From contig JAETRQ010000003.1 in the NCBI GenBank assembly GCA_021770095.1, forward strand, positions 62,001 through 126,000: 64,000 nt of DNA, read 5' to 3'. The position numbers and the translations under genes are program-made. Origin of the DNA: Eubacteriaceae bacterium. Lineage in GTDB: Bacteria; Bacillota; Clostridia; Oscillospirales; Acutalibacteraceae. Under the pieces are notes generated by a model that was not told the DNA's origin, did no database searches, and saw only the letters and a list, made by a program, of their open reading frames with translations. Below, one piece after another: positions 14,758-40,797 of the stretch. Every line of letters starts with the position of its first letter. Position 1 is the stretch's first letter.

Positions 14758-15174
14758 TTATTTGTCAAAACTTGGGTTGGCTGCATAGTAGTTTTTACTG
14801 TCTAACCTGTCGGTTACCAGTCGCAGCCCTTCACCAAAACGCTGATAGTGAACAATTTCTCGTTCACGCAAGAATCTGATTGGTTCAATAATATCCGGAT
14901 CATCAACCAAACGCAGGATATTATCATAAGTTACTCTTGCTTTTTGTTCAGCTGCAAGGTCTTCATTGAGGTCTGCAATTGTATCACCCTTTACTTCCAT
15001 GCTTGCAGCACTCCATGGAAAACCGCTGGCAGCAGTTGGATATACGCCATTTGTATGGTCAACAAAATATGCAGCAAATGCCGGATTATCTTCAATCTGT
15101 TTTTCAGTTAGATTTCTGGTCAATTGATGTACCATTGTTCCGATCATCTCAAGATGTCCCAGTTCTTCTACCCC
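14758..15174 (-). pseudogene. cotJC: cotJC 3' fragment (manganese-catalase-like spore coat protein)
   Basis: About 139 codons of CotJC. They begin at the Gly-Val of the conserved TDIG(T/V)EELGHLEM block and run through YFVDHTNGVYP, DLAAEQKARVTYD and FLREREIVHYQRFGEGL to the normal C-terminus. The first 60 or so residues are missing. An ORF could start at GTG 15186, but its first codons come from the inserted element and have no ribosome-binding site. The missing upstream block is found at 28920-29023 on the same strand. The gene is therefore split by insertion and not simply decayed. Confidence 0.9.
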
Positions 15175-15190
15175 GGTCGGGGACACACAA
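15157..15190. other. Left junction of the cotJC-intervening element (att site)
   Basis: cotJC sequence ends at CC (15173-15174; GG on the coding strand). Beyond it, element sequence starts GGTCGGGGACACACAATTG. The ACACACAA here is the mirror of TTGTGTGT at the right end. Core assignment rests on exact in-frame repair of the TDIG-VEELGH codons. Confidence 0.8.
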
Positions 15191-15326
15191 TTGTCCCTTT
15201 GTGTATATAAAATCTACTGCTTTGTGTCATTGAGCAAAATAGCAGAACACAAGTTAAAACAAGTCCTTGAACCGGACAAGTATTATAAAATAAATTACGA
15301 AGTGAATGTAATATTAGCATAAATTA

Positions 15327-15358
15327 AAACAGAGAGCATTATTCTCTGTTTATTTTAT
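15327..15358. terminator. Bidirectional intrinsic terminator
   Basis: Stem AAACAGAGA (15327-15335) and TCTCTGTTT (15343-15351) with a T-rich tail. It separates the element end from the gene at 15400. In the excised circle it would follow the extended recombinase reading frame. Confidence 0.65.
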
Positions 15359-15399
15359 TAGATGCTTTTTTATAACAGTAAACTTGATATAATTATTTG

Positions 15400-16050
15400 T
15401 TATTCTGTCAACATCCAAATCTCACCGTTTGGCATTATAGAAACATATCCGTTTTTTCGTGTTATTATTTCAGTTGTATTAAAATCTCTTACAATGATTT
15501 CTTCTCTGTAATCAGGGTCTTCAATCCATTTGCTTGATATTAATCTGCCGTCACTTATCAAAAATAAGTCTTCGTTTTTTTCTAACTGAATTTGTTTTTC
15601 AACAGGATATAAAATATTGGTAATATCTTCTATAAATTCGTGTTTAATTAATACATAAGAATTCTGTAAAATTCTTACATTAATTAAATCTCCTCCCTTT
15701 GGTAAAGGTACTTCACCGATAACACTGCAAGAATCCGTCTGAATATCATATTTAACAATCTGTATGCACTCTTTGCTGAAATCATATTTTATAATTGCAA
15801 GTGCATTGTCATCAGCATTATAAATCGGCTTACTTAAAAATACATTGTGTTCCTGCTGAATTGGCTCAAATATCCTGCCTGAAATGTTTATTAAAAATAG
15901 TTGATTTCCTTCAAAAATAAAGTTGTCCGGTGTTTCAAGTAAATCTTCAACATCAAGAAAATCCGGTTGCTTGCAATAAAACCATTCCGTGGTGCCGTCA
16001 ATATTTTCGGGATATAGTTTTTCGTACCCATGAAACTGCTTCGTTTTCAT
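15400..16050 (-). CDS. Hypothetical protein, strand-rich
   Basis: A 216-residue soluble protein without signal peptide or membrane span. Repeated short strand patterns (QLFLINISG, DLFLISDGRLIS, YVSIMPNGEIWML) suggest a beta-propeller or repeat-like fold, as in proteins that monitor or display bound ligands. No known family recognised. It is the first gene of the element on the minus strand, with its own promoter region. Its function is open. Confidence 0.65.
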   Translation of the reverse strand: MKTKQFHGYEKLYPENIDGTTEWFYCKQPDFLDVEDLLETPDNFIFEGNQLFLINISGRIFEPIQQEHNVFLSKPIYNADDNALAIIKYDFSKECIQIVKYDIQTDSCSVIGEVPLPKGGDLINVRILQNSYVLIKHEFIEDITNILYPVEKQIQLEKNEDLFLISDGRLISSKWIEDPDYREEIIVRDFNTTEIITRKNGYVSIMPNGEIWMLTE

Positions 16051-16240
16051 ATTTGTCTCCCCAAATTTATGGATTGTTTATGAAATATAAGTTTTGCTAT
16101 TTATAAAATCATTATAACATCAGTGCATATGTAATTCAATTTAAACTTCTATATTCCGTTGTTATATGCTATAATAAAACAGAATTTATTGGATATGATT
16201 AAACGATGAGAGAAATTGGCACTTTGGATATGAGGATGTT

Positions 16241-16744
16241 ATGAATAATATGGTAATACGAAAAATAAATCCAACTGACAGCCGAGAAGAAATAAGCAAT
16301 GTTTATGAGCAAAGCTGGAAGTTTGCTTACAACGGCATTATTGCACAGGAATATTTGGACAGTATTCCAAGCGGTCAATGGTGCGGTACATTGGATCATC
16401 CCGGCAGATATAATCTTGTTATGCTTGATGGTGACAAGATAATCGGCACGTCATCCTATTGCAAATCGCGCTTTGAGGAGTATAAGGATTGGGGCGAAAT
16501 CATATCAATCTACTTTTTGCCTGCATATATGGACAAGGGTTATGGCAAAGGTTTACTGGAGCAGGCTATTGAAGAATTGAAAGCGATGGGATATAAAAAG
16601 ATTTTTCTTTGGGTACTTGAGGATAATCATCGTGCAAGGCATTTTTATGAAAAATGCGGGTTTAAAAACAGCGGCGAATATATGCATAATGTTATAGGCG
16701 GAAAGCAACTGCGTGAATTACAGTATGTTTATTTTATTGACTAA
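16241..16744 (+). CDS. GNAT-family N-acetyltransferase
   Basis: A 167-residue acetyltransferase. The acetyl-CoA site motif A reads MDKGYGKGLLEQAIEELKAMG, followed by the motif-B region IFLWVLEDNHRARHFYEKCGF. The substrate is unknown. It heads a run of plus-strand accessory genes in the element, 23 bases before the GyrI-like gene. Confidence 0.9.
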   Translation: MNNMVIRKINPTDSREEISNVYEQSWKFAYNGIIAQEYLDSIPSGQWCGTLDHPGRYNLVMLDGDKIIGTSSYCKSRFEEYKDWGEIISIYFLPAYMDKGYGKGLLEQAIEELKAMGYKKIFLWVLEDNHRARHFYEKCGFKNSGEYMHNVIGGKQLRELQYVYFID

Positions 16745-16767
16745 AAGAATGGAGAAAGGATAGTATT

Positions 16768-17433
16768 ATGGCTTTTGATTACAAAAAAGAATACAAAGAA
16801 TTTTATATGCCGAAGAAAAAACCGAGTATTGTTGAAATCCCGAAAATGAATTATATTGCAGTCAGAGGAAAAGGTAACCCGAATGAAGAAAACAGTGAAT
16901 ACAAAAACAGTATCGGATTGTTATATGCCATTGCTTTTACAATCAAAATGAGTTATAAAGGCACGCATAAAATTGATGGTTATTTTGAATATGTTGTGCC
17001 TCCGCTTGAGGGATTTTGGTGGCAGGAAAATACAAACGGTATTGACTATAACAGAAAAGAGGATATGAATTTTATTTCTGTTATCAGACTTCCTGATTTT
17101 GTTACCGAAGATGATTTTAAGTGGGCTGTTGATGAGGCAATGAAAAAGAAAAAACAGGATTTCTCAAAGGTTGAATTTTTAACTTATGATGAGGGAATTT
17201 GTGTTCAGTGTATGCATATCGGCTCTTATGATAACGAGCCTGAAACCGTTGATTTGATGCACAGATATATGGAAGAAAATGGTTATGCATTGGATATAAC
17301 GGACAGCAGACTGCATCACGAAATTTATTTGAGTGATCCGAGAAGATGTGATGAAAGCAAATTAAAAACAGTAATCAGACACCCGATAAAAAAGATAAAT
17401 AAGGAGGATTACAATGAAGATAAAGAGAATTAA
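16768..17433 (+). CDS. GyrI-like small-molecule-binding domain protein
   Basis: A 221-residue stand-alone GyrI-like/SOUL-fold protein (KPSIVEIPKMNYIAVRGKG, then GLLYAIAFTIKMSYKG and a C-terminal RRCDESKLKTVIRHP). Such proteins bind or hydrolyse aromatic or drug-like molecules and often sit near efflux or regulatory genes. ATG follows GGAGAAAGG. It overlaps the DUF4180 gene by 20 bases, so they are cotranslated. Confidence 0.88.
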   Translation: MAFDYKKEYKEFYMPKKKPSIVEIPKMNYIAVRGKGNPNEENSEYKNSIGLLYAIAFTIKMSYKGTHKIDGYFEYVVPPLEGFWWQENTNGIDYNRKEDMNFISVIRLPDFVTEDDFKWAVDEAMKKKKQDFSKVEFLTYDEGICVQCMHIGSYDNEPETVDLMHRYMEENGYALDITDSRLHHEIYLSDPRRCDESKLKTVIRHPIKKINKEDYNEDKEN

Positions 17434-17767
17434 CGATATAGCAATTGTGAACAGCGATGAAGTAATAATGACAGATGTACAGACAGCAATGGATTTGATT
17501 ATGAGCGTAAAATATGAAACCGGATGCAGTAAAATCGCACTGAACAAAGAGGCAATTACAGAGGACTTTTTTATTCTGAGCAAGGGTATCGCAGGTGAAA
17601 TTTTGCAGAAATTCATTAATTACAGGGTTAAATTTGCTATTTGCGGTGATTTTTCAAAATACACAAGCAAGCCTTTAAAAGATTTTATCTACGAAAGTAA
17701 TAAAGGAAAGGATATTTACTTTGTGTCCGATACGGATACAGCAGTGAAGATGCTGTCTGACCATTGA
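17414..17767 (+). CDS. DUF4180 domain protein
   Basis: A 117-residue protein matching DUF4180 (N-terminal DIAIVNSDEVIMTDVQTAMDL, central KIALNKEAITEDFF, and RVKFAICGDFS). Function unknown; the family is common in Firmicutes accessory regions beside GyrI-like and MerR-type genes. Its start lies inside the preceding gene with AAGGAGG upstream. Confidence 0.85.
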   Translation: MKIKRINDIAIVNSDEVIMTDVQTAMDLIMSVKYETGCSKIALNKEAITEDFFILSKGIAGEILQKFINYRVKFAICGDFSKYTSKPLKDFIYESNKGKDIYFVSDTDTAVKMLSDH

Positions 17768-17994
17768 TTCTGATGTGTTCGCTTTGAATTTTGTAAAAAA
17801 CAGTGCAGATAATTCAATTGTACGATATAATTTGACATGAAAGAAACAGAATATACTCGGGAGCAAATGATGTTGAAATTATGATTATATAAAAGGTACA
17901 CAGGTATATGTTTTTCGTCAACGGAGTGCGGACAAGATATAAAAGTTACCGTGTATGGTTGAAATTTGGAATTGCATTGAGATGGAGATTATAT

Positions 17995-18555
17995 ATGAGC
18001 AATATTATGAAGTTTGAAAACAGAAAAGAATTCCGAAACTGGCTTTGTGATAATTGTCAATCAAGTAATGGTGTCTGGCTTGTATTTGGTAAATCCAAAG
18101 GTCCTAAAACAATAAAAGCACACGAAGCACTTGAAGAGGCACTGTGCTTTGGTTGGATAGATGGTCAAATGCAAAGCATTGACGATAAAACCTATAAGAA
18201 ATATTTTTCTATGCGCAGAAAAAACAGTAAGTGGTCAGAGAAAAATAAGGCATTAGTTAAAAGTCTTGAAGAACAGGGAATTATGACTGATTTTGGAAGA
18301 GAAAAAATACAGGAAGCTAAAAACAATGGTCAGTGGGATGCACCAAAGTCCGCAGCAATCACTGATGAACAGATTGCTTGTTTATCCCATTTACTTGAAG
18401 AATATGAGCTTGCTTTCTCAAATTTTCAAAATATGTCTTTGTCTGTAAAGAAAACTTATACACGTGCATATTTTGATGCTAAAACAGATGTAGGACGCAA
18501 AAAACGAATTGCATGGATGGTAGACAGATTAAATAAAAACCTAAAACCTATGTAA
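17995..18555 (+). CDS. YdeI/OmpD-associated family protein
   Basis: A 186-residue protein with the YdeI core: FENRKEFRNWLCDN, VWLVFGKSKGPKTIKAHEAL, ALCFGWIDGQM, FSMRRKNSKWSEKNK and a C-terminal helix region. The family is widespread, with roles proposed in peptide or stress resistance. ATG 17995 has GGAGAT upstream; the longer reading frame from 17908 has no ribosome-binding site. Confidence 0.88.
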   Translation: MSNIMKFENRKEFRNWLCDNCQSSNGVWLVFGKSKGPKTIKAHEALEEALCFGWIDGQMQSIDDKTYKKYFSMRRKNSKWSEKNKALVKSLEEQGIMTDFGREKIQEAKNNGQWDAPKSAAITDEQIACLSHLLEEYELAFSNFQNMSLSVKKTYTRAYFDAKTDVGRKKRIAWMVDRLNKNLKPM

Positions 18556-18702
18556 TGAAAAAAGTTTTATGTTGTCTGACGAGACAAAAAGAGATTTAAA
18601 AGTTTTTGCAGACCGAATAAAATGATGATTCTAAACATGGGATTGTATTGAGATGGAAGTAATCAGATAAATCGTAATTTATTCAAAGGCAGTATGTGAA
18701 AA

Positions 18703-19017
18703 ATGGAGAAGATTAAAGATTTATTTATCAAACTGAAAAACAAGTTTATAAAGTTTTGTAAATGGGTATGGGAAGAATGTAAGGATTGGCACACAGTTGT
18801 TATTTTTCTTATCGTAGTAGTGGTTATGTATTCTCCTGTCTGGGGCGGATATTTGTGCCACGCTATATTCGGCTGGAAATGGTGCAGTGTGATGGCAACG
18901 GCATATCTTGCATTCTGGGCAGGTCCGTTCACGCCCTTTTTTCCGTTATGTATTGCTATTACTTTGGGAATACGGCGGATTATTGATAAAATAAAAGGCA
19001 AAGATAGTTTAAAATAA
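18703..19017 (+). CDS. Small membrane protein
   Basis: A 104-residue protein with a basic, aromatic N-terminal helix, two membrane spans (about 31-48 and 64-86) and a basic tail. No family recognised. The upstream sequence lacks a strong ribosome-binding site. It may be a cargo protein of unknown role. Confidence 0.55.
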   Translation: MEKIKDLFIKLKNKFIKFCKWVWEECKDWHTVVIFLIVVVVMYSPVWGGYLCHAIFGWKWCSVMATAYLAFWAGPFTPFFPLCIAITLGIRRIIDKIKGKDSLK

Positions 19018-19041
19018 TGCAATATATGAGGAGAGAATAAA

Positions 19042-19168
19042 GTGAAAAAAAGTATAAAATATTTATTATTTTGTACTGTCAATAAGCATGCTTATAGGTT
19101 TATGGCATTTCTTTGTGCCAAAAATGTTATTGCAAATTTGCAGAAAAATAGCAGGAGTATCTGTGTAA
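19042..19168 (+). pseudogene. Frameshifted remnant of a small membrane protein
   Basis: After GAGGAGAGAA a GTG opens a reading frame that begins V/MKKSIKYLLFCTV. One base later the sense continues in another frame as ISMLIGLWHFFVP, a motif of a clostridial membrane-protein family, and then ends early. A one-base shift near 19080 and a truncation explain the pattern. I see no intact protein. Confidence 0.5.
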
Positions 19169-19274
19169 CTTCCAATAATCCTATTTAGGTTGCCTAATAT
19201 GTGCCGATTGTAGTTTTTAATCTTATGATAAATTCTATATAGATAATATAGTGAAAGACAGTGGAGATTTGATT

Positions 19275-19715
19275 ATGGAATGTAAAGAGTGTTATAGTAA
19301 TAAAAATAGAATTACACCTTTGCTGGGTGCAAGAGAATGTTTAGAAAATCATTTACAATATGTTTGTGGAACTTGCGGAAGATGTATTTGTATTGATAAA
19401 GATAAAAGCAGAGGCTTGCAAAGATGGAATTTTCCGTTTAAGAGTTTGGATACAGCAAAACTATATTTAAGAACAGCAGACTACACGAATAAAAAGTGTT
19501 GTGGTATTTATGAAATAGAAAATGCAAAAGGCAGAAAATCATACAAAATATTTGCAAGTGATATAGAACTTAAAAAATATTTATCAAAAAACAAAGATAA
19601 AGTATGTAAAGATAATAAAGCAGTATTTTCGATGAACGAGTATAAAGAATATAAAAATACTCAAATTAAACGTTTATCAAAAGATGAAGTCGAAAAATAT
19701 TTGATTGAAATGTAA
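19275..19715 (+). CDS. Conserved hypothetical zinc-ribbon-like protein
   Basis: A 146-residue protein with MECKECYSNKNRI and CGTCGRCICID, two CxxC pairs likely binding zinc, then a lysine-rich C-terminal part. ATG 19275 has GTGGAGAT upstream; the longer frame from 19251 is less likely. It sits 28 bases before the DUF5131 gene. Function unknown. Confidence 0.65.
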   Translation: MECKECYSNKNRITPLLGARECLENHLQYVCGTCGRCICIDKDKSRGLQRWNFPFKSLDTAKLYLRTADYTNKKCCGIYEIENAKGRKSYKIFASDIELKKYLSKNKDKVCKDNKAVFSMNEYKEYKNTQIKRLSKDEVEKYLIEM

Positions 19716-19743
19716 ATAAATTATAATTCAGGAGTGTGATGGT

Positions 19744-20493
19744 ATGGCAATGTGGAATCCATGGCACGGATGTAAAAAATGCAGTGACGGCTGTCTGCAT
19801 TGCTACATTCACAAGGGTGATGCAAAACGAGGTGTTGATACGAATAGAATTGTAAAAACAAAAGATTTTGATAAGCCTGTTCAAAGACTGAAAAATGGTA
19901 ATTATAAAATGAAATCAGGCATTGTTTATTTGTGCTTTTCTTCTGATTTCCTTATTGAAGAAGCAGATGTCTGGCGGGATGAATGCTGGGAAATGATAAA
20001 GGAAAGGCAGGATTGCACCTTTTTATTCCTGACAAAAAGAATCGACAGGTTTATGAAATGTATTCCCGATAATTGGGCTGACGGATACAATAATGTGGTT
20101 GTCTGCTGTACAGTTGAAAATCAAAAGAATGCGGATTATAAACTTAATATTTTTAAAGATTTGCCGATAAAGCACAAATGTATTACTGCTCAGCCGCTGC
20201 TTGAAAAGATTGATATTGAAAAGTACCTTGATGATATAGAATTAGTGGTTGTCGGCGGTGAATCAGACAGAAATGCCAGACCTCTTCATTATGACTGGGT
20301 ACTGAATATACGTGAGCAGTGTGTGCGTCAAAATACGGATTTTGAATTCAGACAGTGCGGTACTTATTTTATAAAAGATTCCAAGAGGTATACTTTACAG
20401 ACGAAAGATTTGTGCAGACAGGCAAAATTGGCAAATATTGATTATAAACGGAATGAGTCAGATGAATATAGCTCAGAGGTAGTACAGGTATGA
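19744..20493 (+). CDS. DUF5131 family protein (phage Gp37/Gp68-like)
   Basis: A 249-residue protein with the radical-SAM-like N-terminal cluster region WHGCKKCSDGCLHCYI (Cys spacing C-x2-C-x3-C-x2-C) and later FLTKRIDRF and VVVGGESDRNARPL. The family is common on phages and mobile elements; its reaction is not established. It overlaps the next acetyltransferase by 4 bases (ATGA). An Fe-S enzyme role is inference. Confidence 0.85.
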   Translation: MAMWNPWHGCKKCSDGCLHCYIHKGDAKRGVDTNRIVKTKDFDKPVQRLKNGNYKMKSGIVYLCFSSDFLIEEADVWRDECWEMIKERQDCTFLFLTKRIDRFMKCIPDNWADGYNNVVVCCTVENQKNADYKLNIFKDLPIKHKCITAQPLLEKIDIEKYLDDIELVVVGGESDRNARPLHYDWVLNIREQCVRQNTDFEFRQCGTYFIKDSKRYTLQTKDLCRQAKLANIDYKRNESDEYSSEVVQV

Positions 20494-20999
20494 TACTCGA
20501 AACAGAAAGATTATATTTACGTAAAATGAATCAGGATGATTTTGATTCATTATGCAAAATATTGCAAGATGAAGAAGTGATGTATGCATATGAAGGTGCA
20601 TTCAGTAATGATGAAGTACAGGAATGGCTTGACCGTCAGATCGCACGTTATCAGATGTGGGGCTTTGGACTATGGGCAGTAATTCTGAAAGAAACGGATG
20701 AAATGATTGGGCAGTGCGGACTGACAATGCAGCCATGGAAGAATGAAGAGGTGCTTGAAATAGGCTATCTTTTTCAGCGTCGGTATTGGCATAAAGGTTA
20801 CGCCACAGAGGCCGCCGCAGCCTGTAAACAATATGCTTTTGAAACATTGGATGCGGATGAAGTCTGCTCGATTATAAGAGATACCAATATTCCCTCACAA
20901 AATGTGGCACGCAGAAACGGTATGGTTAAAACGGATTGCCGGATAAAGCACTATAAAGGTGTGGATATGCCGCATTATCGTTATATTGTTAAACATTAA
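20490..20999 (+). CDS. GNAT-family acetyltransferase (RimJ/RimL-like)
   Basis: A 169-residue acetyltransferase beginning ILETERLYLRKMNQDDFDSL, with acetyl-CoA motif QRRYWHKGYATEAAAACKQYA and C-terminal IPSQNVARRNGM. This is the RimJ/RimL pattern of protein or small-molecule N-acetylation. It is coupled to DUF5131 by an ATGA overlap. The substrate is unknown. Confidence 0.9.
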   Translation: MILETERLYLRKMNQDDFDSLCKILQDEEVMYAYEGAFSNDEVQEWLDRQIARYQMWGFGLWAVILKETDEMIGQCGLTMQPWKNEEVLEIGYLFQRRYWHKGYATEAAAACKQYAFETLDADEVCSIIRDTNIPSQNVARRNGMVKTDCRIKHYKGVDMPHYRYIVKH

Positions 21000-21049
21000 A
21001 AGTAAAACAGAAAAACTGCCATTACGGCAAAGATAAAAGGTGTAAGGAT

Positions 21050-22042
21050 ATGAAAAAATTTATCAGTTGTATATCAATATTATTATGTTTGGTTCTGCTT
21101 TGTTCTTGCTCAAAGGTGAATACAGATAAATCGGCAATGCAATTAAGCAATGCTAATGCAGACGAAACCACAAAAAAGATTTATTCTTACATCTGCGATA
21201 CATATGAAAATGGTATCATTTCTGCTCAGCAGGAATCCACATGGATGGGCAGCAGTGAATACGAAATGGATTATATTAACGATGCCACAGGTAAGCTCCC
21301 TGCCATGCGCGGTCTTGATTTTATGGATGACGATTTTGACGGTGTAGTTGAGCGTTGCGTTGATTGGTGGAATAAGGGGGGACTTGTCACAATCTGCTGG
21401 CATTGCGGTTCCGATTTTGCAGACAGTTATGATGCGTGTATAAGTGATGAACCGGATAACTGGGATTTGATTCTTACTGACGGAACACCTGAAAACACAG
21501 ATTTTATTGAAAATATGGACAAAGCTGGCAATGCACTTCTTAAACTGCAGGATGCAGGTGTAACTGTATTGTGGCGTCCTTTTCATGAGTTTGACGGACA
21601 ATGGTTTTGGTGGGGAAAAGGCGGAGCAGATCATTTTAAAAAACTCTGGATTATGATGTATGACCATTTTACAAATGATTTGGGCTTGAATAATCTTATC
21701 TGGGTTTTAGGATATTCTCATAACGGGAAAAATGTTTCAAAATGGTACCCCGGAGATGAATATTGTGATATTGTCGGAGCAGACAGTTATGAGGTGTCCA
21801 AAAATGGGGCAGAGAAAAGACTGTTCAGAAAGGTGAAAGAAGTTACGCAGGGCAGAAAGCCGTTATGTTTTCACGAATGCGGACTTATTCCAACAGAGGA
21901 ACAGTTAAACGGGACACCATGGTGCTCATTTATGGCTTGGCATACAGAATATCTTATTGATACAAATGCAAAAGAACATTTGAATGAAATCTATAATAGT
22001 GAGTATGTGATTACATTGGATGAACTGCCGAGTTTTATTTAA
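21050..22042 (+). CDS. Glycoside hydrolase family 26 (beta-mannanase-like) lipoprotein
   Basis: A 330-residue secreted lipoprotein (lipobox LLCSC). The GH26 barrel is seen from GIISAQQESTW to the acid/base motif WRPFHEFDGQWFWWG and the nucleophile motif PLCFHECGLIP; both catalytic Glu residues are present. It should cleave beta-mannan or related beta-glucans on the cell surface. GH26 on a small integrative element is notable cargo. AAGGTGTAAGG precedes the ATG. Confidence 0.92.
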   Translation: MKKFISCISILLCLVLLCSCSKVNTDKSAMQLSNANADETTKKIYSYICDTYENGIISAQQESTWMGSSEYEMDYINDATGKLPAMRGLDFMDDDFDGVVERCVDWWNKGGLVTICWHCGSDFADSYDACISDEPDNWDLILTDGTPENTDFIENMDKAGNALLKLQDAGVTVLWRPFHEFDGQWFWWGKGGADHFKKLWIMMYDHFTNDLGLNNLIWVLGYSHNGKNVSKWYPGDEYCDIVGADSYEVSKNGAEKRLFRKVKEVTQGRKPLCFHECGLIPTEEQLNGTPWCSFMAWHTEYLIDTNAKEHLNEIYNSEYVITLDELPSFI

Positions 22043-22115
22043 TAAATAATAAAAAAATATTGTATGTGTAAAAGTTTTGGTGGTAAGTTTTAAACAGGGA
22101 ACCGGAGGAATACAT

Positions 22116-22505
22116 ATGAAAAAGTATAAAATTGCCGCAATTCTTATGATTATCCACGGCGGATTTATGGAAATCGGTGGGTGTTTTGCAATGATTCCTG
22201 CTCTGATACTGGGTAATGATAAGTTTGACGTTGGTCAGTATTTTTCATTCAAGCTGCCATATTTTCAGGATAATTTATATCTGATGATTATTATGGGTGC
22301 AATATATGGAGTGGTTCGTGTTATCGGGGCAGCAGGGCTTTTGAAAAATAAAATGTGGGGTTTGGCATTGTCTGTTATCAATTGTATAGTTACTATGGCA
22401 CTGATGATGTTTTTATTGCCCGCCGGTATAATGGATGGAATATTCGCCTGCACTGCGTTAATTCTGATATTGACCCAATATTTTGGGGACAAGAGAATTG
22501 CATAA
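22116..22505 (+). CDS. Four-span membrane protein
   Basis: A 129-residue protein with four hydrophobic segments (KIAAILMIIHGGFMEI, YLMIIMGAIYGVVRVIG, a third near 85-105, and a fourth near the end). ATG 22116 follows CCGGAGGAA; the frame from 22077 is too early. Function unknown; similar membrane proteins occur singly in Clostridia. Confidence 0.65.
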   Translation: MKKYKIAAILMIIHGGFMEIGGCFAMIPALILGNDKFDVGQYFSFKLPYFQDNLYLMIIMGAIYGVVRVIGAAGLLKNKMWGLALSVINCIVTMALMMFLLPAGIMDGIFACTALILILTQYFGDKRIA

Positions 22506-22616
22506 GTTGATAGTTTTTATGACTTATGATATTATATTTTTGTAAAAATATAATGTCCGGTAGTAATTTTGGACCAGTGTATGAAAAATATGAATTCGGA
22601 AAGTTGGTTGATTATT

Positions 22617-23636
22617 ATGAAAAAAGCATTCAAGTTTCTATCTGTAATCCTATGTGCAATTATAGTTTGTTTATCTCTCTTTGCTTGTTCCCATAAAACA
22701 GTGTCAGCACCTGTTGAGCCGCAAGATTTCAGAGTTACAGCATATATTGTGTCTGACCGACTTGATGAAACATTTGATGTTTCCAATCTGGATAAGGTTA
22801 CAGATATTATTCTTTTTGGCAATGCTACATATGATGAAACCGGAAAGGTGAATCTTTCAGACAGCTTTGACTCTGATGTGGATTTTTTAAGAAGTCTTAT
22901 CACCAACCAAAGGTTTTATTTGAATATTCTTGGTCCGTCATCACAATCACAGTCCGATGATTGGAATGAGCAGATGTATGATCTGGCGGACAGAAACACA
23001 TCTGCATTTGAAAGCGGTGTACTGGAAACGGAGATAAAAGATGTTCTTTCCAAGTATAATTTTGACGGTGTTGTGTTTGACTATGAATTCCCTTTAAGGA
23101 AAAAGGATTGGAAGTCGTTTGATAAATTTATTATAAGCCTTGATTCTGTACTCGGTGATGATTACAAAATCGGTATGTCTATGGTTGGCTGGAATCTTAA
23201 ACAGTCAAAAGAAGCCATGGATGCAACAGATTTCTTTGAGGTTATGAGTTATGATTTATGGGATAAAGACGGAAATCACGCGACTATTGATATTGCAAAA
23301 GATGATATAAAACAGTTTGAGAAAAAAGGCTATGATAAGTCAAAACTTGATTTAGGCGTACCATTTTATGCACGCCCTACAACCAAGGATGCTTATTGGT
23401 ATGAGTATAAATACTACTGTGATGATTTGGATGAAAATGGTTTGTACAATGATGCTGAAACCGGTCTTACATTTTCATTTAATACCTATGATGTTATAAA
23501 AGAAAAAACAGAAATAGCACTTGAAAGCGGAATGGGCGGAATGATGATTTGGCATTATTCCTGTGACACACCTGCTGATAGTGAAAAGTCACTTTTTGAT
23601 GCTATCGACAGTGCGAAACAGTCGGCAATAAAATGA
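22617..23636 (+). CDS. Glycoside hydrolase family 18 lipoprotein
   Basis: A 339-residue secreted lipoprotein (lipobox LFAC). The GH18 barrel shows the catalytic motif FDGVVFDYEFP, where the Glu is the acid, plus VMSYDLWDKDG and GGMMIWHYSCDT. Likely substrates are chitin, peptidoglycan or N-glycan GlcNAc links. The start at 22617 gives the standard MKKAFKF signal peptide; upstream ATGs at 22569 and 22581 are possible. It pairs with GH26 as secreted glycosidase cargo. Confidence 0.88.
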   Translation: MKKAFKFLSVILCAIIVCLSLFACSHKTVSAPVEPQDFRVTAYIVSDRLDETFDVSNLDKVTDIILFGNATYDETGKVNLSDSFDSDVDFLRSLITNQRFYLNILGPSSQSQSDDWNEQMYDLADRNTSAFESGVLETEIKDVLSKYNFDGVVFDYEFPLRKKDWKSFDKFIISLDSVLGDDYKIGMSMVGWNLKQSKEAMDATDFFEVMSYDLWDKDGNHATIDIAKDDIKQFEKKGYDKSKLDLGVPFYARPTTKDAYWYEYKYYCDDLDENGLYNDAETGLTFSFNTYDVIKEKTEIALESGMGGMMIWHYSCDTPADSEKSLFDAIDSAKQSAIK

Positions 23637-23654
23637 TTTAAACAGATATGATAA

Positions 23655-23690
23655 TGGGATTATTTCATTTAGATGAGATAATCCCATTTT
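23655..23690 (+). terminator. Intrinsic terminator after GH18 gene
   Basis: Stem TGGGATTAT (23655-23663) with ATAATCCCA (23678-23686), followed by TTTTATTG. Confidence 0.8.
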
Positions 23691-23702
23691 ATTGTTTCTG
23701 CA

Positions 23703-23732
23703 GAAAAAATAACCACCGATTCAACGGTGGTT
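23703..23732 (-). terminator. Intrinsic terminator of the TetR unit
   Basis: Stem AACCACCG (23711-23718) with CGGTGGTT (23725-23732). On the minus strand it is followed by T residues. It overlaps the stop region of the TetR gene. Confidence 0.75.
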
Positions 23733-24270
23733 ATGATTGGGTGGATTTTATATTACGGATAATAATATCTGCAATATCTTCTATACTTTCCCTGCAGTTG
23801 TTTTTTTGCCATTCCATTATCAGTGCAATGATTCCGTTTATATAAAATGCCATTGTGTACTGCCATTCATCTTCAGGAACATCAAATCGCATTAAAATCG
23901 GGCTGAATACATATTCAAACAGCTTTTTATAATTTCTGTCCAATTGCAGTGTACCTGAGTGTAAAACAGCAGTCTGAAACAGTTTTTTATTATCTTTAAT
24001 ATAGGAAAGGTAAGGGATAATATAATCGGGTTTAATGAACATAAGCTCATCAAGAGATGAATTATTTATTTTAGAACGAATGTCATTTTCAGAAAAATAT
24101 TTGAGAAAACCGTCTGACATATATTCAACACTTTCATCAAGTAAATCTGCAACTGTTTCATAATGCAGGTAAAAGGTGGAACGGTTGACTCCTGCTCTTT
24201 TGCAAATATCCTTTACTGTAATATATTCAAAGTCTTTTTCAGCCGGTAAATCCAAAAATGCTTTGTCCAT
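23731..24270 (-). CDS. TetR/AcrR-family regulator with a frameshifted N-terminus
   Basis: A 179-residue TetR-type repressor. The HTH reads FEYITVKDICKRAGVNRSTFYLHYE, and the C-terminal part has the DhaS/TetR_C layout. The ATG at 24270 has no ribosome-binding site. Upstream, AGGAGAGG precedes a TTG at 24311 that opens NKSESKYFNTES, the usual N-terminus of this family, but in a frame off by one base just before the ATG. A one-base loss (or sequencing error) near 24272 explains it. The protein may still fold from the internal ATG. Confidence 0.8.
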   Translation of the reverse strand: MDKAFLDLPAEKDFEYITVKDICKRAGVNRSTFYLHYETVADLLDESVEYMSDGFLKYFSENDIRSKINNSSLDELMFIKPDYIIPYLSYIKDNKKLFQTAVLHSGTLQLDRNYKKLFEYVFSPILMRFDVPEDEWQYTMAFYINGIIALIMEWQKNNCRESIEDIADIIIRNIKSTQS

Positions 24271-24307
24271 CTTGATTCCGTATTAAAATATTTACTCTCG
24301 GATTTAT

Positions 24308-24691
24308 TCAAAGTCCTCTCCTTTTAAGTACAGTTTTAATCGTTTTCACTGATTTCTTTTGCAAGTTCAACGATTTCAAAAGCATATTTATCCTTGCTTT
24401 TTTTAAAAGTCTTTTATAAATAGGATAATTTATGCTGACACCTGCAATTCCGATGATGCCTATAATAATACCTAAAACCATTGATATTGTGCCGTTTAAA
24501 TCAAACTGATTCATACAAAGGCACATACCGATACCAAGTACCAAAGCACTGATAATGCCAAAGGTGTAAGCGAAAATGTTAGCAGGTCGTTTTGCCTTAT
24601 TGTCCAGCTTTCGCAGTGCAACAACCTTGGAGGTTTCTTTCGGTGCGTATTCCTTTGCGATTGATTCTGCGTAAATTTTGTCTGTGTTCAC
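24308..24691 (-). CDS. Conserved two-span membrane protein, C-terminus frameshifted
   Basis: A 127-residue protein beginning MNTDKIYAESIAKEYAPKET, a well-known clostridial family with two transmembrane spans (about 39-60 and 65-88). The last 30 or so residues are out of frame. One more A in the run at 24398-24404 (7 T on the plus strand) would restore the expected LKKSKDKYAFEIVELAKEI ending, with a stop at 24336. The gene precedes the TetR gene and probably shares its transcript. Function unknown. Confidence 0.75.
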   Translation of the reverse strand: MNTDKIYAESIAKEYAPKETSKVVALRKLDNKAKRPANIFAYTFGIISALVLGIGMCLCMNQFDLNGTISMVLGIIIGIIGIAGVSINYPIYKRLLKKARINMLLKSLNLQKKSVKTIKTVLKRRGL

Positions 24692-24907
24692 AAAAATAAC
24701 TCCTTTTCTTTTGATGCCTTCATTATATCGGAGTTCATCTTTTATCTGAACAGCACAATTTTGCTTTTCTGTTGTTTTCAGAATGATTGACTGAAAACGA
24801 TTTATTTATAATGATTTAAAGTGTTTAATTGATATAATCTGCTTTACATATTTTCAGTCGGGAAGTATAATGAATACAGAATACAATCAGAATCGAGATG
24901 CATATTT

Positions 24908-25321
24908 ATGTGGGTAGTGTTTGCAATACTTTCATCCATATTTGCGGCAGCAACATCCATACTTGCAAAAATCGGAATTGATGATATTGATTCCAATCTT
25001 GCAACTGCAATAAGAACCGTTGTGGTTGTTATTATGGCGTGGGGTATGGTGTTTATAACCAATGCCCAGTCAGGGCTTGCATCAATAAACAGAAAAAGCT
25101 GGATATTTCTTATCCTTTCAGGTGCGGCAACAGGGCTTTCGTGGCTTTGCTATTATAAAGCATTGAAGGATGGAACGGTATCTGTTGTTGTGCCGATAGA
25201 TAAACTGAGCGTCGTAATCACAATGGTTTTTGCCGCTGTATTTTTGCACGAGCAGTTTACGCCGAAATCCATTATCGGTTTGGTTTTAATCAGCATTGGC
25301 ACACTCTTAATGGTTTTATGA
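24908..25321 (+). CDS. EamA-family transporter (short, four-span)
   Basis: A 137-residue membrane protein of the half-length EamA type: four hydrophobic segments and a C-terminal half reading LSGAATGLSWLCYYKALKDG, then VVPIDKLSVVITMVFAAVFL and IGLVLISIGTLLMVL. It likely works as a dimer to export metabolites. No good ribosome-binding site precedes the ATG. Divergent from the membrane-protein/TetR pair, which may control it. Confidence 0.9.
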   Translation: MWVVFAILSSIFAAATSILAKIGIDDIDSNLATAIRTVVVVIMAWGMVFITNAQSGLASINRKSWIFLILSGAATGLSWLCYYKALKDGTVSVVVPIDKLSVVITMVFAAVFLHEQFTPKSIIGLVLISIGTLLMVL

Positions 25322-25342
25322 TAATAAAATAGGAATGAAAAG

Positions 25343-25376
25343 AGCGTTGGAAATTTATTTTTCCGACGCTTTTTTA
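25343..25376. terminator. Bidirectional intrinsic terminator
   Basis: Stem AGCGTTGGAA (25343-25352) with TTCCGACGCT (25361-25370), followed by TTTTTATTTG. It lies between convergent eamA and exonuclease genes. Confidence 0.8.
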
Positions 25377-25384
25377 TTTGTGCT

Positions 25385-25915
25385 TTAAAAATAATATGTT
25401 TTTATAAATTGATTTATATCTGCTCCGCTTTCTATGTATCGCAAAAGAATTTCTGCACAGGCAAGGCTGTCGCTCCCTGCGTGATGGTGTTCAAGTTCAA
25501 TGCCGTAATAGTCACACATTGCATTGAGTCTGTGGCTCATTTTAGGAAGAATGCATCTGCCAATCTGCACTGTGCAGAGATATGGTGCGTGTGTTTTCCA
25601 ATTTATTCCATAATCCCGCAAGCAGCATTTGAGAACACTCATATCAAACGGTGCATTGTGTGCAACTAAAATGCCGCTGTTCATAATCGGTTCAATTTTA
25701 TTCCAAATTTGTAGAAAGGTTGGCTTGTCCTGCACCATTTCCTCACTGATTCCGGTTAATTGCGTGTTGAAATAATCAAAACCTGTTTCAGGATTGATGA
25801 GGGAATAGAGTTTCCTTGTGATCATTCCATTTTCAATTATCGTAATACCGATTGCACTCATACGATTGTTAAACCGATTCGGTGTTTCAACATCAAAAGC
25901 AATATATCGTGACAT
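25385..25915 (-). CDS. DnaQ-like 3'-5' exonuclease
   Basis: A 176-residue DEDDh exonuclease: ExoI motif IAFDVETPN (Asp and Glu), ExoII VAHNAPFDMSVL (Asp), ExoIII with HHAGSDSLACAEILL (His and Asp). All four metal-binding acids and the His are present. It resembles free-standing epsilon-type proofreading or RNase-T-like nucleases. It stands alone in the element. Confidence 0.92.
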   Translation of the reverse strand: MSRYIAFDVETPNRFNNRMSAIGITIIENGMITRKLYSLINPETGFDYFNTQLTGISEEMVQDKPTFLQIWNKIEPIMNSGILVAHNAPFDMSVLKCCLRDYGINWKTHAPYLCTVQIGRCILPKMSHRLNAMCDYYGIELEHHHAGSDSLACAEILLRYIESGADINQFIKTYYF

Positions 25916-26123
25916 TTTTGTTCCTACCTACTGTGTTTTGATAACCTGATAATATCATATTAAAATCTAAAAAGTCAATTTATGAATCAGACAATTTATT
26001 GTACAAACAACTGAATTATAAAAGAATTCTATGATAAAAATAATTACCATTCAATGAAATAGTGAAAGGAGTAATGGCATAAGGACAAGATGCTTTTGCA
26101 TAAATTTCGTTGAGGCGAGTTCT

Positions 26124-26288
26124 ATGAAAACGAAAGTTATTCTGGAAAGTCAAAACGAATATGCAAAGCAGGAAAATAAAGAATTTGAAAAAGTGTATAT
26201 GAAGGCAGTGCTGATGGCACTTCTGGAAGATAAAAAAATCAGCAAAGCACAATATGACGAGTGTAAAAGAAGATTGAAGATTGAATGA
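26124..26288 (+). CDS. Small SHOCT-like protein
   Basis: A 54-residue basic, helical protein ending in AVLMALLEDKKISKAQYDECKRRLKIE, the SHOCT-like helical-hairpin pattern typical of small genes close to clostridial serine recombinases. It may help recombination or regulation, but that is inference from neighbourhood. The region before it has TTGAGGCGAG as a weak ribosome-binding site. Confidence 0.7.
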   Translation: MKTKVILESQNEYAKQENKEFEKVYMKAVLMALLEDKKISKAQYDECKRRLKIE

Positions 26289-26313
26289 AAAACAGCCACT
26301 GAAAAGCGGCTGT
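26286..26313 (-). terminator. Intrinsic terminator of the metallopeptidase gene
   Basis: Stem ACAGCC (26292-26297) with GGCTGT (26308-26313). On the minus strand it is followed by TTTTT. Confidence 0.65.
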
Positions 26314-26319
26314 AAACTG

Positions 26320-27153
26320 TTATTCATTTGCAAATCTATAAAAATACTTAAGAACAACACTTAATTTCATTGATGCAATTTCTTGTAAAGAGTAATCATT
26401 CATAAGAAATCTGAAAAAGGATGTTCCTAAATAATAGCCAACATCGGAATGGTCCATAAAGCTTCGCCAATCACCAAAGAAATCCTGAACACTGTCCTTA
26501 TTTTGAATTCTTTTAAGATATTCAGTTTTAATTAAATTTCTATTCTCTTTACACCAATCCAGCCAACCATTTGTATTCTGATGATAATAGTCCGTATCAT
26601 TACAAAGGGTCTGTTCAAATACCATTGCAATGCCTTCACTATAAAGTTGATAAATGCCTTTTTGTCTATTATTCAATAAATGATTTTTATGTTCAAAATG
26701 TGAGTGATATATATGACCGAGTTCGTGGTAAATCAGTGCTTGCATATCACGTTCACTGCACCAGCCGAGTTCAACAACCTTTTCAAGACCAATCAGTATA
26801 ACTTTTTGATTTTTAATAGTAGTTGCCCAGCCCGCAGCATTTCCTAAGCCTAAATATAAGATAATTGTAACATCCAAATCAATGTTGAATTTCTTTTTGA
26901 TTTCATCCGACAGATTTTTTGTGGCGTTTATAAATGATTGATGTGCCACTTCTGCTGTTTTGATATTTTTTTGTATGTCATTAAAAATTGCATAAATTTT
27001 ATCTTTATATTCTGAAATTCTTGAAAAATCTTTTTCTACTTTGTTTTTTAATTCGGGAAATATAGAAATGGCATAGTCATCCCATAATGCTTTATTGAAA
27101 ACACCATTTTCATAACAATTGAATATATCACTGTAAGTATCCATTATTTTCAA
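26320..27153 (-). CDS. Zincin metallopeptidase-like protein
   Basis: A 278-residue soluble protein with the zinc motif IYHELGHIYHSH and a downstream Glu in SEGIAMVFEQ, the gluzincin arrangement. I see no signal peptide. I prefer the TTG at 27153 as start because GAGGTGAT lies 8 bases upstream; an ATG at 27144 is possible. In integrative elements such proteins can cleave a repressor to trigger excision; here that is only an inference from the position beside the recombinase. Confidence 0.75.
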   Translation of the reverse strand: MKIMDTYSDIFNCYENGVFNKALWDDYAISIFPELKNKVEKDFSRISEYKDKIYAIFNDIQKNIKTAEVAHQSFINATKNLSDEIKKKFNIDLDVTIILYLGLGNAAGWATTIKNQKVILIGLEKVVELGWCSERDMQALIYHELGHIYHSHFEHKNHLLNNRQKGIYQLYSEGIAMVFEQTLCNDTDYYHQNTNGWLDWCKENRNLIKTEYLKRIQNKDSVQDFFGDWRSFMDHSDVGYYLGTSFFRFLMNDYSLQEIASMKLSVVLKYFYRFANE

Positions 27154-27293
27154 GACTATCACCTCGCAGTTACAGTATATCATAACTACATATTTTAATC
27201 AAAAATCATTTCAAAAATTAGATGTTTAGATGTTCTAATATAATGCACAACTGATAAGAAGGCAACTACCTGCCTAAAGAAAGGAGTAAAAAT

Positions 27294-28967
27294 ATGTTTG
27301 AATCGGATGCTGAGGTTAAGCGGATTGCTGCTTACTGCCGAGTGTCTACAGACAAGACGGATCAGGCAAATTCACTTGAAAGCCAGCAGAAATTCTTCAA
27401 CGAATACATAAGGCAAAATCATTTGTGGGAACTTTATGATATTTATGTTGATGATGGAATTTCAGGCACGAATACGAAAAAACGAGTGGCTTTCAATCAG
27501 ATGATTGAAGATGCAAAAAACGGTAAATTTGATTTGATTATCACAAAAGAAATCAGCCGATTTGCGAGAAATATTCTCGACAGCATTGGCTATACAAGAG
27601 AACTGAAAGCACTCGGTGTTGGCGTGATTTTTCTGAATGACAACATTAACACTCTTGACAGAGATGCGGAAATGCGGCTTGCGTTTCTCTCCACAATGGC
27701 ACAGGAGGAAAGCCGAAAAACAAGTGAGCGCGTGAAGTGGGGGTTGCGCAGACAGATGGAAAAAGGCGTCGTCCTCGGCAGAGATATGCTGGGATTCGAT
27801 GTGCGTGACGGCAAACTGATCATCAACGATGAAGGCGCTGAAACAGTAAGGTTGATTTATCACAAATTCCTTGATGAGGGCAAGGGTGCTCATAGGATTG
27901 CAAAGGAACTGCGTGAGGAAGGCATCAAGACATCTACACGAATAAAAGACTGGTCATACACAGTGATTCTTCGTATACTGCGAAATGAAAAATACTGCGG
28001 TGATCTGGTTCAGCAAAAGACCTATACGCCCGACTATCTCACACATCAAAAAAAACGCAATTACGGCGAGATTGAAACAGTGACAATCAAAAATCATCAC
28101 GAGCCGATTATCTCTCGTGAACGCTTTGAGGCCGTGCAGAGAGAACTGGAAAGAAGAAAACCGTCTCAGAGCACGGTAAAAACCTTTGCAAACAGGTATG
28201 CACTGTCGGGCAAGATTATCTGCGGTGAATGTGGTGCAAGCTTTGTCAGACGGCAAAAAAAGCGAAAAGACGGCACAATGACCGTGAAATGGGTGTGTGC
28301 TGAAAGTCAGAAAAACGGTAGTCAACATAAAGAAAAAGACGGAACTGCTGTGGGCTGCACAACAAATTCCATCAATGACAGGGATATAAAAGAGATTTTG
28401 CAAACGGTGCTTGCAGATACAATGCTGAGCCGAACAAATATCATTAATACGCTTTTGCAGACAGTAGAAAGTGTTGTGAAAAGTGCAAGTGACAATGATA
28501 ACATTGCACGTTTTCAAAACGATATTGCTAGGTGCGAGGACAAGAAAAAGAAATTGCTTGATTTGTGCCTGAACGGATATATTGAGAATAAGGAGTATCG
28601 AGAGGTATGCGATGATTTAAACTGTCAGATAACTGCCCTGGAGCAGAAAATGATTCAAGAACAAAGCAATCAGAAGATGTTTGCAGATAAGGAAAAAATT
28701 ATTGATGATATAAAAGCATATGTAAATGCTATATCGACAGGCGAGGGATGGAACGATGCGTTTTATAGAAATATCGTTGACAAAATTGTAATTTATAAGG
28801 GCAGAAAAATAGATATTCACCTGAAACGGATACCTGAAAAGCGGCAGGGCAGAATCCTCGCAGGAAGACAGGAAATTGAGGCATACGAGAGAATAAAGTA
28901 CTCTTGTGTGTGCTCTGAACCTATATCTGTTAATAATCCTTTCAGTTCAGGGAATGGCATGGAATAA
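27294..28967 (+). CDS. Large serine recombinase (integrase of the cotJC element)
   Basis: A 557-residue recombinase: resolvase catalytic domain with the active Ser in AAYCRVSTDKT and the Arg motif TKEISRFARN, a recombinase domain with DWSYTVILRILRNEKYCGD, a zinc ribbon (CGECGASF and later Cys pair), and a C-terminal coiled coil. AAAGGAGT precedes the ATG. The frame crosses the att core: its last 15 residues are read from cotJC antisense DNA. In the excised circle the frame would run into the other end of the element and gain about 49 residues. It should insert and remove the element at the GG core. Confidence 0.95.
   Translation: MFESDAEVKRIAAYCRVSTDKTDQANSLESQQKFFNEYIRQNHLWELYDIYVDDGISGTNTKKRVAFNQMIEDAKNGKFDLIITKEISRFARNILDSIGYTRELKALGVGVIFLNDNINTLDRDAEMRLAFLSTMAQEESRKTSERVKWGLRRQMEKGVVLGRDMLGFDVRDGKLIINDEGAETVRLIYHKFLDEGKGAHRIAKELREEGIKTSTRIKDWSYTVILRILRNEKYCGDLVQQKTYTPDYLTHQKKRNYGEIETVTIKNHHEPIISRERFEAVQRELERRKPSQSTVKTFANRYALSGKIICGECGASFVRRQKKRKDGTMTVKWVCAESQKNGSQHKEKDGTAVGCTTNSINDRDIKEILQTVLADTMLSRTNIINTLLQTVESVVKSASDNDNIARFQNDIARCEDKKKKLLDLCLNGYIENKEYREVCDDLNCQITALEQKMIQEQSNQKMFADKEKIIDDIKAYVNAISTGEGWNDAFYRNIVDKIVIYKGRKIDIHLKRIPEKRQGRILAGRQEIEAYERIKYSCVCSEPISVNNPFSSGNGME
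28904..28938. other. Right junction of the cotJC-intervening element (att site)
   Basis: Element sequence TTGTGTGTGCTCTGAA ends at CC (28920-28921), and cotJC sequence TATATCTGTTAA follows. The TTGTGTGT is the inverted partner of ACACACAA near 15186. It lies inside the recombinase reading frame. Confidence 0.8.
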
Positions 28968-29023
28968 CGTTGAGAAAGATAGCGCAGTGATGCACCAAGT
29001 TCACCATCAGGTCCACTGTATTG
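28920..29023 (-). pseudogene. cotJC: cotJC middle fragment
   Basis: The minus strand encodes QYSGPDGELGASLRYLSQRY, then SMPFPELKGLLTDIG: the CotJC block that directly precedes the VEELGHLEM of the 3' fragment at 14758-15174. In-frame stops (TAA TAA) lie immediately before the Gln codon, where the second recombinase element begins. The first 30-40 codons are not in the window. Because of this second break, excision of the first element alone would not give a full gene. Confidence 0.88.
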
Positions 29024-29038
29024 TTATTAGAGACTATA

Positions 29039-34949: not shown

Positions 34950-35114
34950 GTGGCAGAATTAAAAGTATCTTTATACATAATAAAAAACGGCGAGACTGTG
35001 CCGATTGAAACAGTGCCGGAAGAAGACTGCAAAAAGATGTCTGAACGGCTCGGCAGAGTTATGAGTGACTATTACACGCAGCATCCTGATGAATTTGTAA
35101 AAATTATGGATTAA
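34950..35114 (+). CDS. Small phage protein
   Basis: A 54-residue soluble protein (AELKVSLYIIKNGETVPIET, then a helical C-terminus). GTG start with AAAGGGGATG upstream. Short proteins of this kind are frequent in the early region of clostridial prophages. Function unknown. Confidence 0.6.
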   Translation: MAELKVSLYIIKNGETVPIETVPEEDCKKMSERLGRVMSDYYTQHPDEFVKIMD

Positions 35115-40717: not shown

Positions 40718-40797
40718 TGATGGATGAATTGAAATCGTGTCCGTGGTGCGGAGCAAAAATGGACGAGGAGCAGTATGCGAGACATAAGAGAACTTAA
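40717..40797 (+). CDS. Very small zinc-ribbon protein
   Basis: A 26-residue peptide beginning MMDELKSCPWCGAKM, half of a zinc ribbon as in small Lar-like phage proteins. It overlaps the methylase stop by one base and the next gene by 23 bases. GAGGTG lies just before it. Small but well placed in the operon. Confidence 0.5.
   Translation: MMDELKSCPWCGAKMDEEQYARHKRT

Follow-up and report, generated by a model that had tools for sequence, protein, structure and literature searches.

Intervening elements have been described in the sporulation genes sigK, spsM, spoVFB, spoVR, gerE and yabG, according to the excerpts of the literature on which all statements about cited papers here draw. In Bacillus subtilis and Clostridioides difficile, the skin element interrupts sigK and its precise excision by a large serine recombinase restores the gene; in the latter species, excision is limited to the mother cell by CD1234, which sigma-E and SpoIIID control (PMC5025042). 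SPbeta lies as a whole prophage in the coat-related gene spsM and leaves during sporulation with the factor SprB (PMC4191935, PMC5025042), gin in gerE of Bacillus cereus is a non-phage element encoding a recombinase and a helper (PMC5595907), vfbin in spoVFB likewise has its own recombinase and helper (PMC10747680), and yin in yabG of Clostridium botulinum is prophage-like, interrupts a late mother-cell gene and carries a candidate directionality factor (PMC10747680). Published programmed DNA splicing of sporulation genes, as far as we found it, involves one element per gene. Here we describe cotJC, a coat gene encoding a protein of the manganese-catalase fold, in a 64,000-nucleotide stretch (hereafter, the window) of the genome of a Eubacteriaceae bacterium (GenBank assembly GCA_021770095.1, contig JAETRQ010000003.1), where two elements, E1 and E2, divide the gene into three pieces. 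We put at about three in four the probability that site-specific mobile elements hold cotJC in pieces and that the gene becomes whole on their excision, which would probably be linked to sporulation.

As in skin, a sporulation gene is interrupted, the flanking pieces join in frame (in silico) and a recombinase gene lies beside the element end, which on sequence grounds would place the locus among the skin-type systems. The target of skin is a sigma factor, whereas here it is a coat protein, hit at several sites by elements with recombinases of several unrelated clades. E2 resembles SPbeta as a prophage in a coat-related gene and E1 resembles gin as a non-phage element, but SPbeta has one site and one element, and gin and vfbin are each the one element of their gene. 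The yin element is described as unique, whereas 35 of the 52 cotJC-bearing genomes in the genus studied here have a split gene. CotJC has a documented coat role (PMC11222575, PMC12122855), and the C. difficile phage phi027 has its attachment site beside cotG, whose product is a CotJC homologue; we considered this as an earlier case of a split cotJC and rejected it, the 678-bp gene lying unsplit downstream of attR (PMC11222575, PMC12122855). A survey of large serine recombinases (Durrant 2022; PMC10083194), whose main text has 'catalase' in no word, likewise reports many diverged enzymes using a conserved site, in a prolyl isomerase gene, but that is one site, in contrast to five in one gene with different recombinase clades. 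We found no split cotJC in print in a search that covered few subscription papers and no supplements, and as far as that search reaches, the new feature is a single gene that has five attachment sites, is hit by several unrelated recombinase clades and comprises as many as four exons.

Two elements divide cotJC into three exons

The window comprises bases 62001-126000 of a 178-kb contig in a 2.39-Mb genome, and coordinates below are those of the window. A search of the whole genome with the Pfam Mn-catalase profile (PF05067) found cotJC in three minus-strand pieces, with no other copy in the genome, matching profile positions 1-31 at 64169-64261, 24-66 at 28910-29035 and 59-196 at 14809-15186. 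Exon 1 (64169-64261, contig 126169-126261, ATG at 64261) lies just past the window. Exon 2 (28920-29016; codons 31-62) is the 97 bp between E1 and E2 and aligns with residues 25-65 of the joined CotJC at 85% identity, element-derived flank included. Exon 3 (14758-15174) runs from codon 62 to the stop, encodes the C-terminal part and aligns with residues 55-199 at 95% identity, a few element-derived residues at its start included. E1 (15175-28919; 13,747 bp core to core) separates exons 2 and 3 and has non-phage cargo; E2 (29017-64000, with its right-end core at 64168-64173, just past the window; 35,157 bp) separates exons 1 and 2 and is a siphophage-like prophage. Removing both in silico gives an unbroken 199-amino-acid CotJC without internal stop, preceded by GGAG ahead of the ATG, that aligns with solved Mn catalases over residues 1-179. 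No paralogue of CotJC was matched in the window genome, which has spoIIIAE and an unbroken sigma-factor gene that is like the sigma-K model but under its cut-off.

A sequence-only reading of the window had proposed that a single excisable 13.7-kb element splits cotJC. The split is real, but that account covers only half of it, E2 having been missed. The block at 28920-29023, then taken as the CotJC part preceding exon 3, does encode CotJC, but it is an inner exon rather than the 5' part, and positions 29017-29023 belong to E2. The joined sequence bears out a lossless in-frame join at a GG core between the block at 28920 and that at 14758-15174: the core (CC on the plus strand, 15173-15174 with 28920-28921) gives ACA GAT ATA GGG GTA GAA GAA CTG, in frame and with zero bases lost. 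Removal of E1 alone therefore restores the exon 2-exon 3 frame, as had been claimed, but not the gene, whose start lies about 35 kb further on. The recombinase gene was correctly placed at the right end of E1 (27294-28967, plus strand; Resolvase, Recombinase and Zn_ribbon_recom domains), and the proposed repeats 9-16 bases either side of the core are present in the joined E1 ends. That E1 is an excisable cotJC-intervening element is well supported by this symmetry, by empty sites in relatives and by the use of the same site by the same recombinase clade in other species.

Attachment sites are symmetric and fixed

Both E1 ends show symmetry centred on the core (left end, 15155-15192; right end, 28902-28939). 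Joined, they read TTGTGTGT-GCTCTGAA-CC-GGTCGGGG-ACACACAA, and the attachment site of the joined ends (attP) is TTGTGTGTGCTCTGAA-CC-GGTCGGGGACACACAA. Across 16 centres scanned, the core and its neighbour scored best (14 and 12 of 25 matches), and the rest reached at most 8. The left end of E2 (28996-29031) has the core GTCCAC at 29011-29016 and an attP of CTCTTTTATCAATACA-GTCCAC-TGTATTGTTATTAGAG, with 16 of 20 symmetric positions at the exact join. Each window recombinase adjoins exon 2, one per side, and both have the domains PF00239, PF07508 and PF13408: that of E1 also matches phrog_95 (integrase) and its final 15 codons lie antisense within exon 2, while that of E2 (29039-30475, minus strand) belongs to the site-A clade described below.

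Junctions from the genus were aligned in gene coordinates, and the symmetry of element ends about the shared dinucleotide was scored at 25 offsets (-12 to +12), offset 0 being the in-frame join without loss. Offset 0 was best in 28 of 32 junctions (7/8 at site A, 11/12 at B, 1/2 at C and 9/10 at D); with element sides shuffled (60 shuffles) it won in a mean of 3.9 and at most 9 of 32. In other genera it was best in 11 of 12 further junctions, a set that leaves out two G079 rows already among the 32 (genomes carry G numbers and loci L numbers throughout); here G260 at site A and G086 at site B were weak (10 and 9 of 20), and G124 and G221 share arms. A test for exact direct repeats placed offset 0 strictly best in only 10 of 32 junctions and was indecisive because shared runs are short, so the symmetry test was used in its place.

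The sites at offset 0 are A (codon 31, nucleotides 91-92, GG; seven junctions), which E2 occupies in the window genome, B (codon 62, nucleotides 184-185, GG; ten), which E1 occupies there, B' (codon 65, nucleotides 193-194, GA; one, in G076, which the downstream junctions of G032 and G070 match), C (codon 137, nucleotides 409-410, GA; one) and D (codon 176, nucleotides 526-527, GA; nine). Each core is the first two bases of a glycine or glutamate codon, which leaves the wobble base free. The sites lie near what we take to be the metal ligands of the Mn catalase (E35, E65, H68, E137 and H170, mapped from the Lactobacillus enzyme).

The split recurs across the genus and beyond

The genus was represented by one genome per species, 80 including the window genome. 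The joined CotJC was matched in 53; G058, which matched only via a 34% paralogue, was dropped, leaving 52 genomes with cotJC, intact in 17 and in pieces in 35. The control gene spoIIIAE (372 amino acids, nearly twice the length of cotJC) was matched in 67 of the 80 and was partial or split in only five (G027, G035, G056, G067 and G073). Among the 34 split genomes besides that of the window, at least one break lies over 150 nucleotides inside a contig in 30, and 12 are broken at two or more sites; nine are broken at site A, 17 at B, three at C and 18 at D, with B' pooled with B and the break of G004 at residue 173 pooled with D. Four exons are present in G033 and in G076, with breaks at A, at B or B', and at D. 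The sequence-only reading had set two tests in advance, and both came out in its favour: cotJC is in one piece in 17 relatives, and all 17 intact genes are free of inserted or missing residues within 12 residues of the five sites, the one residue that eight of them lack being at position 92, distant from the sites.

In the family, CotJC was matched in 238 of 298 genomes. Among the matches listed, the best piece runs from residue 22-30 to the end in at least 30 genomes outside the genus and ends at 175-180 in at least 12, G227 of these at a contig end. The 258 of 298 genomes listed include seven one-contig genomes from five genera, and in every one of the seven cotJC is split within that contig. 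G285 has sites A and B both filled, as in the window genome, and Caproiciproducens faecalis strain AGMB10547 (G098) has a 9.6-kb site-D element in cotJC. In the class, 190 of 293 genomes matched and, among the matches listed, pieces starting at residues 57-63 occur in several other families, three of these genomes being one-contig and of one genus (G391, G480 and G528). cotJC is thus a repeated target at fixed codons across a family, with similar breaks in other families.

Sites A, B and D each have their own recombinase clade

A FastTree phylogeny (midpoint rooted) of 45 recombinases, picked by their position beside junctions and not by mutual similarity, gave one clade per site for sites A (17), B (10) and D (13); the three B' recombinases group together, and site C and a further site in G004 contributed one each. 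Median identity between sites is at most 29%. A Resolvase N-terminal domain, a Recombinase domain and a zinc ribbon are present in both window recombinases and in the examples from sites B', C and D. The E1 recombinase is 86-88% identical to site-B recombinases of G033, G035, G065, G008 and G030. The clades cross genera, with site-B members in G086 and G285 and site-A members in G203, G124, G163, G313, G260, G339, G264 and G285.

Relatives of the E2 recombinase also occur on viral contigs. Of 78 viral-contig loci, 73 were classed by the sequence after the recombinase: 33 end within 150 nucleotides of the gene, six run into a cotJC exon, 16 have a palindrome of at least 14 of 20 positions and no cotJC (shuffled 99th percentile 13, maximum 15), and 18 have neither exon nor palindrome. 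Palindromic ends without cotJC indicate that some relatives of the E2 recombinase have an attP that is not inserted. In seven of the 16 (L269, L272, L286, L293, L313, L331 and L335) a site-A-like cotJC core was recognized by eye, as in L269, GGGAATACGGA|GG|ACCGTC; the remaining palindromic loci have other cores and presumably other targets. L270 is a second case of A and B together, combining an E2-like recombinase with cotJC residues 30-64 and a junction of the E1 type. The site-D recombinase has one close relative among the viral contigs (L346, 94%).

Several arrangements at these sites stand apart. Site B', three codons downstream of site B, is linked to its own distinct recombinase clade (L054, L087 and L095, from G032, G070 and G076). 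Site-D elements, despite their one recombinase clade, are found in either orientation with respect to cotJC (L044, L057, L081, L088 and others). In G004 (L102:1-2217, C27), an in-frame fusion joins cotJC residues 1-171 to a large serine recombinase in which the Resolvase domain begins at profile position 25, the usual catalytic N-terminus being missing; its attachment site may lie inside the recombinase gene. The site-B recombinase frame of G285 (L228:3574-5622) continues into exon 3, giving a 683-amino-acid fusion of recombinase and CotJC 59-199. The G033 site-B insert holds two E1-like recombinases, each 88% identical to that of E1 (L250:8619-10250 and L251:6299-7969), as if two elements were in tandem.

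Split genes are constrained and elements encode candidate helpers

No stop codon occurs inside the exons of the 35 split genomes, outside seven-codon junction masks. The median nearest-neighbour ratio of nonsynonymous to synonymous polymorphism (pN/pS) is 0.076 in split (n = 32, three genomes with too few codons being left out) versus 0.107 in intact genes (n = 17), which points to purifying selection on split exons as strong as that on intact genes. The pattern CA-N13-17-CATANNAT precedes cotJC at 23 of the 28 starts of split genes and at 12 of the 17 of intact genes, compared with a mean of 0.6 and a maximum of 4 of 45 in a shuffled control; we take it to resemble sigma-K/E promoters, that is, promoters of the mother-cell type. 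Site-A recombinases and cotJC exons are similarly diverged at four-fold sites (0.67 vs 0.64), near saturation, with no sign of recent movement.

Small open reading frames in the elements are candidates for directionality factors by position and conservation; SprB is similar in size. In E1, a 54-amino-acid frame (26124-26288, plus strand), with no PHROG match, is conserved in six other site-B elements, the surrounding frame being 82-87% identical in G065, G033, G008 and G035, 78% in G030 and 64% in G002. In E2, the candidate is a 54-amino-acid frame with a GTG start (34950-35114, plus strand; phrog_26314, function unassigned there). Its homologues (50-58 amino acids) occur in G041, G076, G023 and G079, where the site-A element is only 2.0 kb and consists of a recombinase and the homologous 56-amino-acid frame among several short frames. 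Site-D elements of 11 genomes have a 57-amino-acid frame ahead of the recombinase. CATA-type boxes upstream of the candidate frames were read by eye and gave a signal too weak to claim.

At site B, the recombinase gene spans its own attachment site, and integration therefore splits both cotJC and the recombinase gene. The opposite end of E1 (15173-15322, plus strand) encodes a predicted 49-codon C-terminal tail that the recombinase would gain in the circular form. In seven of nine site-B elements (G052, cut by a contig end, and G074, with a different end, being left out) the recombinase frame stays open across this tail for 43-52 codons, against at most 27 codons in other frames, and in each of four pairs at least half of the changes fall at third codon positions.

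Weighing the explanations

Under the reading favoured here, of a split gene made whole by excision, recombination between the two ends of each element (attL x attR giving attB and a circle) would leave a scarless gene of 199 codons. The terminal mother cell would trigger excision, as it does for SPbeta and for skin in C. difficile, and the likeliest agent is a small directionality factor encoded by the element, working together with the recombinase. Both partners would gain, the germ line retaining the element and the coat gene being whole where it is used.

Several observations weigh against this reading. The site-A candidate factor was not found in eight whole site-A elements from other genera (G313, G260, G163, G339, G203, G124, G221 and G285), nor was the site-D candidate found in G098 and G121, and the circle tail of the site-B recombinase is broken in G008 and G037. 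A search for cotJC-type promoters ahead of E1 and E2 genes gave 13 matches, one of them followed by a start signal and none convincing, and site-B and site-D recombinases have a conserved sigma-A-like upstream sequence. Another centre scored better in four of the 32 genus junctions (G076 at site A, G039 at B, G032 at C and G079 at D), site C is weak, with one miss (G032) and one tie (G037), and one of the 12 other-genus junctions misses (G339 at site A); junctions at the same site are related, so the 32 are not independent trials. Finally, four-fold-site differences are lower in site-B (0.42) and site-D (0.41) recombinases than in the adjacent cotJC exons (0.62), indicating that these elements moved recently between species, and intact exons are therefore weaker evidence at those sites.

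A more far-reaching version, which we hold tentatively and at somewhat less than even odds, is that in Clostridia cotJC consists, as DNA, of multiple exons, with at least five fixed splice points cleared by separate excisions in the mother cell and some elements shrunk to DNA introns. Unrelated recombinase elements would occupy these points, each at the first two bases of a conserved glycine or glutamate codon near metal-ligand motifs, independently of one another, with as many as three present together (four exons). Selection for the spliced gene would maintain DNA introns roughly 2 kb long, such as that of G079 with its recombinase and candidate factor. At site B, integration would exchange the tail of the recombinase and may in itself determine which way the reaction runs. 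Failure to find the site-A candidate factor outside the genus makes this version less likely.

Ordinary temperate phages or islands landing in a conserved, dispensable gene, with cotJC inactive in lysogens, excision only on induction and young insertions, are an unlikely explanation, though one with some basis: E2 looks like a full prophage, attP-like forms without cotJC occur among related viral contigs, and the recombinases at sites B and D postdate the divergence of their hosts. Insertional mutants of two C. difficile cotJC homologues had reduced catalase activity without a significant coat defect (PMC11222575). Yet on this explanation 35 of 52 species would be without the gene, while constraint on it is unrelaxed and its exons are free of stops; site-A recombinases are as diverged as the exons, a recombinase is retained even in elements of 2.0 and 2.3 kb, and all seven one-contig family genomes among those listed are split. 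Whether such elements are domesticated switches or passengers tolerating a gene that only a terminal cell uses is an old question that so many insertions open to comparative test.

That split cotJC is a decaying pseudogene whose role a paralogue has taken over is very improbable: a CotJC paralogue of 34-37% identity exists in G032, G033, G058, G072, G073, G076 and G077, but none was matched in the window genome, and the lack of stops, low pN/pS and kept promoter speak against decay. Chance and an artefact of metagenome assembly or binning were rejected, the latter being scarcely credible even though most genomes are drafts and several of the pieces are on different contigs, given recurrent breaks at identical nucleotides with matching recombinases, the symmetry test with its shuffled control, the rarity of breaks in the longer spoIIIAE of the same genomes, and one-contig genomes that are likewise split, along with the site-D split of Caproiciproducens faecalis AGMB10547.

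Element contents and further observations

The cargo of E1 comprises, by Pfam matches, GNAT acetyltransferases, GyrI-like, DUF5131, GH26 and GH18 proteins, an EamA transporter, a TetR regulator and an RNase_T exonuclease. No phage structural gene was found among the 16 frames scanned besides the recombinase, frames such as 19251-19715 being outside that scan; we therefore rejected E1 as a prophage and classed it as a non-phage island. E2 encodes a predicted terminase (44826-46094), portal (46095-47447), minor head protein (47419-48903), major head protein (50209-51135), tape measure protein (53800-56187) and tail protein (57035-58009), by which it would be a temperate siphophage, and, among the ten frames scanned, also a repressor-like gene. 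It further carries a gene like that of 3'-phosphoadenosine-5'-phosphosulfate reductase (40775-41899; phrog_424). No close relative of its recombinase was found in the phage collection searched (best match, 41.5%).

Taken together, the junctions provide sets of large serine recombinases whose attB/attP pairs are mapped, along with candidates for directionality factors, in elements down to 2 kb. No cotJC match of this type was found in 28 of the 80 genus genomes, 19 of which do match spoIIIAE; either cotJC has been lost there or its pieces are too short to find. At L234 (G158), L035 (G002) and L068/L069 (G038) there are extra partial copies of cotJC, covering residues 58-197 or 175-199 and separate from another copy, as if tandem or successive integrations had left behind an additional 3' exon. 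The window genome also has three large serine recombinases in succession at a different locus (G000:C45:764-4484), and its PF07508 matches number ten in total.

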